Positions 17,690-48,981 of a stretch of DNA of 64,000 nucleotides are shown in pieces. Below the pieces are notes generated by a model. It was not told where the DNA came from. It saw nothing but the letters and a program-made list of their open reading frames with translations, and made no database searches. Each line of letters begins with the position of its first letter. Position 1 is the first letter of the stretch. The DNA comes from Owenia fusiformis (taxonomy: Eukaryota; Annelida; Polychaeta; Sabellida; Oweniidae). Made by a program: the position numbers and the translations under genes. The DNA lies in assembly GCA_903813345.2 (NCBI GenBank), contig CAIIXF020000001.1, positions 47,571,885-47,635,884 on the forward strand, in the 5' to 3' direction.

Positions 17690-20600
17690 CTAGCCAACAT
17701 TCATGTACAAGCTGTTGTTATCAGTCTCTGTGTTGGCATAAATCACTTCATCTGTATTGGCTTCTTCTTCTGTTTTCTCCATGTACCTCAAGGCAACTTG
17801 GTAGCAGTATTGGTATTGGGACTGAAAGTTACAAATAAGAATGATTATATTTCTAAATGTCCTTCAGAATTCAGTCATTGACTGTTTGTAAACATGTTTC
17901 ATTTTAGTTTTTTAACAAGAGAACAAACACTGATAAATAGCACACTCTGGAGAGCAAAATGACAGCCATGTTTTTTACCCAGCATGCCATAAACCTAAAT
18001 CACATGTTGTCACTAGTCTGCCCTTGCATACACAGGAAAAAGTATGTAAAAAGTTCAAGTTGAATGGATAAGAGATTTTACTGGAAGTTTGCATGTTGAT
18101 GACAAGATTTAATGGCGCCTGGCCACCTGTCTTTAAAGATACATGCCCATCAGCACAAAACTATGCCAATATAGCTCTTTTCAAAGTGTGATAAAAACTA
18201 TAAATTTCAAATGTTTACACCTTGTAAAATATATCTAGTCTATAACTCATTGGAAAATGACCATAAAGATTGTCTGATGTTTATTACAAAAAGTGAAAAT
18301 ACTGAAACAGTATGTCAAAAGTTCAAGTTGAATGGATAAGAGATTTTGCTGGAAGTTTGCATGTTGATGACAAGATTTAATCGCGCCTGGCCACCTGTCT
18401 TTAAAGATACATGCCCATCAGCACAAAACTATGCCAATATAGCACTTTTCAAAGTGTGATTAAAAACTACACATTTCAAATGTTTACACCTTGTAAAATA
18501 TATCTAGTCTATTATTCACTGGAAAATGACCATAAAGATTGACTGATATTTATTACAAATACTGAAAGCTACAGTTCAAACTAAAACTCACCAGAGAATT
18601 GACTAGTTCAGGTCTGTTTATCCTGACATGCTTCACTGCCTGGAATATATCCACTTCCTTTTCAGAGGCCTGCTTCTCTTTGCTGTAGCTAAGGGCGCAA
18701 TACAGACCACTGCGACTGGCACCATTCCTGCGTGGAAAGATTTATCAATATGATATGAACTTTTTTCTTTGAAAGTTTTTTATACAGTAGGCATTCTCTC
18801 TAATCATATGTACATATGCCGTGAATTCTCTTTAGACTTGCACACAGCATATAACTTGAAAGCTACCTATATGGAAATTTGACATGTCTGTTTCTTAATA
18901 AATATTTTATAGTATATCATTAGAAGTGTTTAAATTGAGAAACTGATTAGAAAGCTATGAAAGTTATTTATTCAAAAAAGTTTATTGAATTGAGGATTAT
19001 CAACATACAAAATCTTTAAAACGTTTTTTTGACAACAAATCAATCAATTTAATTGGAAGATAATAGCAATTAGTGATTAGTGCATATAGAAAATATTAGA
19101 AAAGCCTGATTGGTCAATACATACATGCAATGGATTGTGATTGGTCCTGGTTTCTCTACAGGTTGCCACTTATTGACGGCTTCTATCAATGTCAGCATGG
19201 CATCTTCACTCTGTGGGAGGTCAGAGTCTTTAGGCCAGCGTGTCAGCTGGAACTGGCATATCGTCTTTGTCTCAGCCTTACCCTAAATGGAATTTTTTTC
19301 TTTAGTATATGGTTTTTATTTGCATGATGAATTCAAGTGAATGAAATACAATTCATTGTGAAGGGCCTAGGCTAAAATCATAACAAACATTTGGTCAAAA
19401 AAATATTTCTTGATATGAGAGAATTTCTTTTTTACTAACCTCAATAGACTGTTAATTCAAAATATTGATAACTATTTTAACAGATAAGATGACATCATTG
19501 AGTTGGATAACAGGTGGAAACCAATAAATCCAAAATGATTCTTTTTGAGCCTTCATAATTTATATTCTAAAACCCCCTTTTCTAACATTTATTGCTCTAA
19601 TGTAAATCGTCATTTCAGTAATTAATACTCATACATGTATTAACATTTAGCTTTCTCAAAATGTGGAAATAAGTTATGTGCACGATATATAAAGCTACTA
19701 CATCTAAATGTATTACTCACTCTGAAACTACACGACTGACATGAACATGTGATATTAAACTGACGTATGATGACATCATTGAGACTGTTGTCCAGGTCTG
19801 TGAGTTCTATAGTGAAGGGACCATACTTCTGTTCACCTGGACTTTCTGGCCAGTATGCCACACATGTCTACAATGTAACAGGTGCACTCAATAAATGTTG
19901 CTTCAGAATAAAGTGAGATTTAATGTCACTCCTTTAAAATCAACTAGTTATTTTGGTATATTGAAGCTCTAAAATAATTGCTTTGCTGAGGTTCATTTGT
20001 TCAGGGCTCTAAAGACTTTGATTTTAAGAAATCAGTTTAAAATGTTTTAAAGCGAATTTTGCTCTAAAAAATCCATAACTGTAAAAATATCTGGGAAACG
20101 AGCATGTAGAGGAAATCCAAATCCTTTTATTCAAATTAAATGTAAAAAATATTCCATGTAATAACAAATGCATCCCTACTTCATCATTTTTATCCAGTTC
20201 ATTTAACATGACAATGGTAGAGGACTTGTGATCATACACCATTCTCCAAAAGTCTATCACTGTAGAAGGCAAAGGCATCTGAGTCAGCAGGTATTGGTAC
20301 TTTCTTCTATAGCCCTACAGCATACATTATTGTATGTTTAAACAAACAAACATTCCAATTATAAATCTTTCATATTTGCATACATGCTTATGAGTAATTT
20401 GGAAATAGCGATTTGATTGATCATGAAACAATTTTCTTTAAAAAATAAATTACAAATTACCTAATAACCAGTCATAAAACAATGAATGGGTTTTATATCT
20501 CTTTGTGCTTTACATCTTTTTCATGCTGCTCCATATATGAGAATATACTTACATCTATGAAGACTGCATTAATGTAGTCAGTGAGCCCATCTACCTGGGT

Positions 20601-48981: not shown

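Follow-up and report, generated by a model that had tools for sequence, protein, structure and literature searches.

A predicted receptor phosphatase of Owenia fusiformis with an R2B-like core and an EGF-kringle-EGF head

The minus strand of the window (the whole stretch of 64,000 nucleotides analysed here) carries a candidate gene for a single-pass receptor phosphatase that consists of an R2B-like core and a head of a different kind. The core includes two phosphatase domains and a membrane-proximal unit of the Fn3_PTPRU type, and the head is made of an EGF-like unit, a kringle and a second EGF-like unit. We favour, with somewhat better than moderate confidence, the reading that one gene encodes the whole protein from the EGF-kringle-EGF head to the D1-D2 domains.

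Gene model and continuity of the head with the phosphatase

The minus strand was read by eye with three frames on display, and exons were assembled from 48981 to 17690 into a 32-exon coding sequence of 1679 amino acids that ends in a stop codon. The coordinates and domain order given in a preliminary description of this DNA were reproduced. The model runs in the order signal peptide, eight-cysteine EGF-like unit, kringle, eight-cysteine EGF-like unit, seven FN3-type units, transmembrane segment, juxtamembrane segment, D1 and D2. The features are listed below with the evidence for each.

48915..48981, minus strand: exon 1 (provisional), ATG and signal peptide (22 residues), phase-1 donor; hydropathy
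41746..41922, minus strand: exon 2, EGF-like unit 1 (EGF1), phase 1-1, eight-cysteine pattern and extra Cys24; cysteine spacing
40511..40783, minus strand: exon 3, complete kringle in a single exon, phase 1-1, six kringle cysteines and extra Cys98; Pfam and PDB
38100..38243, minus strand: exon 4, EGF-like unit 2 (EGF2), phase 1-1, eight cysteines; cysteine spacing
35039..37660, minus strand: exons 5-6, FN3-1; PDB match, weak in Pfam
33691..34585, minus strand: exons 7-8, FN3-2; fn3 at E 8.6e-7
33141..33449, minus strand: exon 9, FN3-3; Pfam; CAAG acceptor chosen, with an in-frame alternative CAG 6 nt on
32076..32719, minus strand: exons 10-11, FN3-4; Pfam
31103..31852, minus strand: exons 12-13, FN3-5; Pfam
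30567..30875, minus strand: exon 14, FN3-6; Pfam
29214..29852, minus strand: exons 15-16, membrane-proximal FN3-7 of the Fn3_PTPRU type with furin-like SRRRRS; Pfam and motif
27618..27729, minus strand: exon 17, transmembrane helix; hydropathy peak, 19-residue window from residue 988
23744..24535, minus strand: exons 18-19, juxtamembrane segment; three-frame reading
21234..23539, minus strand: exons 20-25, D1 with WPDHG and a further ten-residue motif intact; Pfam, PDB and motifs
17690..21068, minus strand: exons 26-32, D2 (KNRD, WPK, HCMNGASRSG, NSLSQY), C-terminal tail with two YxN motifs, and stop; motifs

Every intron is bounded by GT-AG, and the phases agree throughout the model. Because the splice sites were picked with the frame in mind, this agreement is partly built in and is supportive rather than independent. 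As a check on coding character, each exon was given a leave-one-out codon score and compared with 300 random intronic pieces. Twenty-nine of the 32 exons scored above at least 97% of these pieces, the exceptions being exon 1, exon 6 and the transmembrane exon 17, whose scores were reached by 89%, 10.7% and 10.3% of the random pieces, respectively. The scores of head exons 2, 3 and 4 were reached by 0.7%, 1.0% and 0% of the pieces, respectively. The assignment of exon 1 is provisional. It lies about 7 kb upstream, beyond an intron 1 of 6992 bp, and its coding score (-0.38) shows no excess over the intronic background; hydropathy and phase-1 donor filters retained five candidate start exons (two of them nested) in 56000..41923, and none of the others is as hydrophobic. 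Exon 2 does not qualify as a first exon, since an in-frame stop is located about 10 nt upstream with no in-frame ATG between.

Does the head belong to the same gene as the phosphatase? Intron 4, which separates EGF2 in exon 4 from FN3-1 in exon 5, is only 439 bp long, and the kringle exon follows upstream, separated from this junction by the EGF2 exon and a 2267-bp intron. In the frame shown, neither an ATG nor a signal peptide is present in exon 5, which opens with a phase-1 acceptor that suits the phase-1 donor of exon 4. These features agree with the earlier proposal that the EGF-kringle-EGF head is part of the same gene. They argue against the alternative that exons 1-4 form a separate upstream gene for a secreted EGF-kringle protein and that the phosphatase starts elsewhere, which we regard as very unlikely, even though EGF-kringle pairs exist in secreted proteases such as uPA. 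The head itself matches the uPA entry 2fd6 of the PDB at E 5.5e-6, over part of EGF1 and the kringle. Moreover, read-through of the exon-4 donor would lead to a stop after 30 codons, and a secreted short form is therefore possible.

GC content varies between 32 and 39% across the window in 4-kb steps, and no Rfam family reaches its gathering score anywhere in this stretch. A two-exon TGF-beta ligand (6039-7102, plus strand, PF00019), presumably activin-like, is located downstream. Upstream of the gene, CBM_14 (chitin-binding) and Cu/Zn superoxide dismutase exons are found at about 56300-58660 (minus strand) and possibly belong to one gene. An open frame of 353 residues (51604-52665, minus strand; 346 amino acids from the first ATG) has no Pfam match at E<=0.1. 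Intron 5 harbors a foldback element (36452-37496) whose longest arms measure 287 nt and are 95% complementary; 13 bp separate the end of one arm from the exon 5 donor, and the element encloses an open reading frame fragment that we take to be a mariner-like C-terminal part. What appears by eye to be the same 135-bp tandem repeat occurs in opposite orientations downstream of the gene (2569-4530, 14.5 copies) and in intron 17 (25451-26263, 5.9 copies). An SdiA-regulated Pfam match above the cut-off in 1-9900 (minus strand) coincides with the 135-bp repeats; it was set aside, as was a NigD match below the cut-off. The intervals 9468-10862 and 400-2568 contain further tandem arrays, one with a 46-bp unit in about 31 copies and several with a 32-bp unit.

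The EGF-kringle-EGF head and the search for MAM and Ig

The kringle is the best defined unit of the head. It matches Pfam PF00051 at 51.6 bits (cut-off 34.3, E 1.2e-13) over profile positions 3-79 of 79, a full-length match that includes the six conserved cysteines (residues 85, 108, 140, 153, 167 and 172), and it was also recovered in a model-independent three-frame scan (E 8.7e-11). In the PDB search, its nearest solved structures are the plasminogen and HGF kringles, with both of which it aligns, and ROR kringles match at 1.9e-6 and weaker. The head resembles uPA, HGF and plasminogen in having a kringle by sequence, and its EGF-kringle order is that of uPA, but those are secreted protease-type proteins, and the acidic pair of the lysine site is missing from the present kringle. 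In plasminogen-type kringles, this acidic pair forms the lysine site. The head kringle reads NPNKY where plasminogen K1, K4 and K5 read NPDND, NPDAD and NPDGD, and no acidic pair precedes PWC. Given the replacement of the plasminogen pair by NKY, a lysine-type ligand is unlikely; the kringle probably serves to bind proteins and not to trap lysine.

The two flanking units (exons 2 and 4) have a common cysteine spacing, C-x8-C-x3-C-x-C-x5-6-C-x6-7-C-x4-5-C-x8-C, which resembles that of Tie/MEGF-type EGF units. EGF1 has no Pfam match, and its best PDB match (E 0.074) is without significance; EGF2 has Pfam matches below threshold only (best E 0.024, 15.5 versus 27 bits) and a best PDB E of 0.6. 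The EGF-like label of both comes from the eight-cysteine spacing and is the most tentative assignment in the head. Two odd cysteines, Cys24 in exon 2 ahead of the eight-cysteine pattern and Cys98 in the kringle exon, could possibly bond with each other or hold a receptor dimer together. AlphaFold, run on single exons without an alignment, returned low-confidence models of the kringle (mean pLDDT 55.1) and EGF1 (54.2).

The head exons also carry a mark of their possible origin. EGF1, the kringle and EGF2 all enter and leave in phase 1, as the preliminary description had noted, and phase-1 introns connect exons 1 to 4, the pattern expected from exon shuffling. Class 1-1 modules are a sign of exon shuffling according to PMC8001218, and shuffling of such exons is the probable origin of the EGF-kringle-EGF head. 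That the head took the place of MAM and Ig, as the preliminary description proposed, is a possible history.

Whether MAM or Ig exons had been missed in the head introns, a reservation attached to the earlier proposal, can be answered in part. In minus-strand three-frame Pfam scans of 37001-46000 and 45900-55500, neither MAM nor Ig appeared at E<=1, and the single match besides the kringle in 37001-55500 was Collagen (E 0.05). The translated model likewise contains no MAM at E<=1. No Ig reached the Pfam cut-off in the model or in minus-strand scans of 28600-37800 and 37001-55500, where sub-threshold matches consisted of Ig_6 on FN3-1 (E 0.19) and Ig_ILCR1 on FN3-6 (E 0.19 in the model, 0.021 in the scan). 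As a control, the same three-frame method recovered fn3 and Fn3_PTPRU stretches from 28600-37800. HMMER filters discard most matches above E 0.1 in these scans, and sensitivity is limited because both EGF exons and FN3-1 were missed by the same method, so that split exons could escape. The absence of MAM and Ig is thus likely, not proved.

FN3-1 bears directly on this point as the sole unit near the head with a sub-threshold Ig match. Its Pfam matches to FN3_DSCAM (E 0.15) and Ig_6 (E 0.19) are nearly equal and weak. However, its PDB matches at E<=10, 23 sequences in all, include chains of titin, myomesin, PTPRD, PTPRS and Dscam, with best E values of 2.9e-23 for titin (summed over repeats), 1.8e-4 for the single-domain chain 1bpv and 0.04 for PTPRD. 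We read the unit as FN3 because of these matches and because it contains one cysteine only; its identification as the missing Ig domain was set aside, the PDB matches following an FN3 pattern. An alternative would place split or diverged MAM/Ig exons in intron 1 or elsewhere, so that the EGF-kringle-EGF head would be added to an otherwise ordinary R2B receptor or occur in one of its alternative isoforms. The 6992 bp of intron 1 and the Pfam scan's failure on the EGF exons and FN3-1 leave room for a split MAM, but the minus-strand scans of 37001-46000 and 45900-55500 showed neither domain at E<=1, whereas the same method detected FN3 exons in 28600-37800, and FN3-1 matches FN3-pattern chains; we consider this alternative improbable.

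The R2B-like core and its place among receptor phosphatases

The rod between head and membrane comprises seven FN3 units, namely five Pfam fn3 stretches, the Fn3_PTPRU unit and FN3-1, recognized through the PDB. FN3-7 matches Fn3_PTPRU (PF23144) at 33.2 bits in the whole protein and 38.9 bits alone (cut-off 24.7) and contains the furin-like motif SRRRRS at residues 882-887 (RRRR from residue 883). A second motif, RSRR, precedes D2 and is irrelevant to secretory cleavage, as it is intracellular. In the PDB search, the FN3 region matches the PTPRM ectodomain chains 2v5y (1.9e-13) and 8a16 (3.2e-9), with R2A chains ranking above them (6tpw, 9.7e-20).

Pfam identifies two Y_phosphatase stretches in the model (E 1.8e-147). 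D1 retains its catalytic motifs (the KNRY loop, WPD and the ten-residue motif) and is predicted to be an active-type phosphatase. Against single-domain chains, D1 scores 322.6 bits with PTPRK, 321.5 with PTPRT, 294.9 with PTPRM, 281.7 with 2nv5 (which we take to be an R2A chain), 270.2 with PTPRU and 251.5 with PTPRA, so that, as far as scores go, it appears closest to PTPRK and PTPRT among the single-domain chains. The whole-chain PDB table for D1 is headed by R2A chains with two PTP domains each; the best R2A per-domain D1 score among the five alignments shown is 284.3 bits (PTPRS D1), approximately 38 bits below PTPRK. PTPRU D1 itself ranks below R2A domains. The earlier assignment of both the membrane-proximal part and the cytoplasmic half to the R2B type is thus upheld, the former by the score of FN3-7 against Fn3_PTPRU and the latter by the lead of PTPRK and PTPRT over the best R2A domain shown.

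D2 has WPK for WPD and other altered motifs, retains the Cys and Arg residues, and looks to be of the inactive type. Its best matches are the D2 domains of PTPRE and PTPRA (175.9 and 175.6 bits per domain; PTPRE D2 chain, 185.0; PTPRS D2, 155.9), in a comparison that leaves R2B D2 aside because the R2B chains among the 60 matches listed are D1 chains. D2 is followed by a tail of about 30 residues (17690-17821, minus strand) with the YxN motifs YANT and YMNV. PTPRA uses YxN motifs of this kind for Grb2. The two tail motifs were set aside as a signal, since at least two occurred in 5.7% of 20000 shuffles and their presence does not exceed chance.

How does this protein compare with known receptors? 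It resembles ROR receptor kinases in placing a single kringle on a phosphotyrosine-signalling receptor, and it differs in being a phosphatase where ROR is a kinase. The ROR domain order is Ig-frizzled-kringle. With the R2A receptors (LAR/PTPRF, PTPRS and PTPRD), the protein shares the FN3 array, transmembrane segment, D1-D2 arrangement, high D1 score and best FN3-region matches, although its D1 scores lower with them than with PTPRK. R2A heads are Ig domains. With PTPRK, PTPRM, PTPRT and PTPRU, it shares the D1 match, the Fn3_PTPRU domain with a furin-like site, the single transmembrane segment and the inactive-type D2. It departs from them in its EGF-kringle-EGF head without a detected MAM or Ig, in its seven FN3 units versus four, and in its tail with two YxN motifs. 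PMC10815196 gives the R2B architecture as MAM, Ig and four FN3. Because MAM and Ig were not found and the FN3 units are not four, we do not file the protein as a classical R2B receptor and assign it an R2B-like core only.

No kringle-bearing receptor phosphatase appeared among the papers listed in searches of the open-licence literature, and two scans of viral contigs revealed no relative. EGF-headed receptor phosphatases are numerous in mollusc annotations, which makes a kringle-headed one less surprising. The protein may be a routine member of an invertebrate EGF-headed R2B-like expansion, with the kringle as one of many lineage-specific variants of the head and no new function; PMC8001218 treats shuffling of class 1-1 modules as common among animals. 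However, Pfam detected no second phosphatase in 1-17700 on both strands, 49000-58000 on the plus strand or 45900-63998 on the minus strand, and thus no tandem copies were seen in these parts of the window. We hold this explanation to be a serious one that falls slightly short of even likelihood.

A possible role in heterophilic contact

R2B receptors adhere homophilically through a contact formed by MAM-Ig and the first two FN3 domains (PMC10815196). PTPRK is cleaved by furin, and its inactive D2 recruits Afadin (PMC6440744). By analogy, furin would cleave the present receptor, and the two resulting chains would stay together non-covalently. The EGF-kringle-EGF tip would bind a matrix or other-cell partner in place of the homophilic MAM-Ig unit of PTPRK, PTPRM and PTPRT, with its reach set by the FN3 rod. 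Binding would place D1 at contacts, where it may dephosphorylate substrates that D2 helps recruit. Heterophilic binding by the head is the simplest expectation because the MAM-Ig tip is apparently absent and a kringle tip is present.

A bolder reading, which we put forward as speculative and rather doubtful, is that the protein represents a distinct, conserved class of phosphatase. Its EGF-kringle-EGF tip, perhaps locked by a Cys24-Cys98 bond, would recognize a ligand of matrix or growth-factor-like type in place of a receptor of its own kind and would couple heterophilic contact to PTPRK-type junction machinery. An R2B core with a kringle tip in a natural receptor would uncouple the signalling core from homophilic recognition, and it would add the kringle to the receptor phosphatases in parallel with ROR among the receptor kinases.
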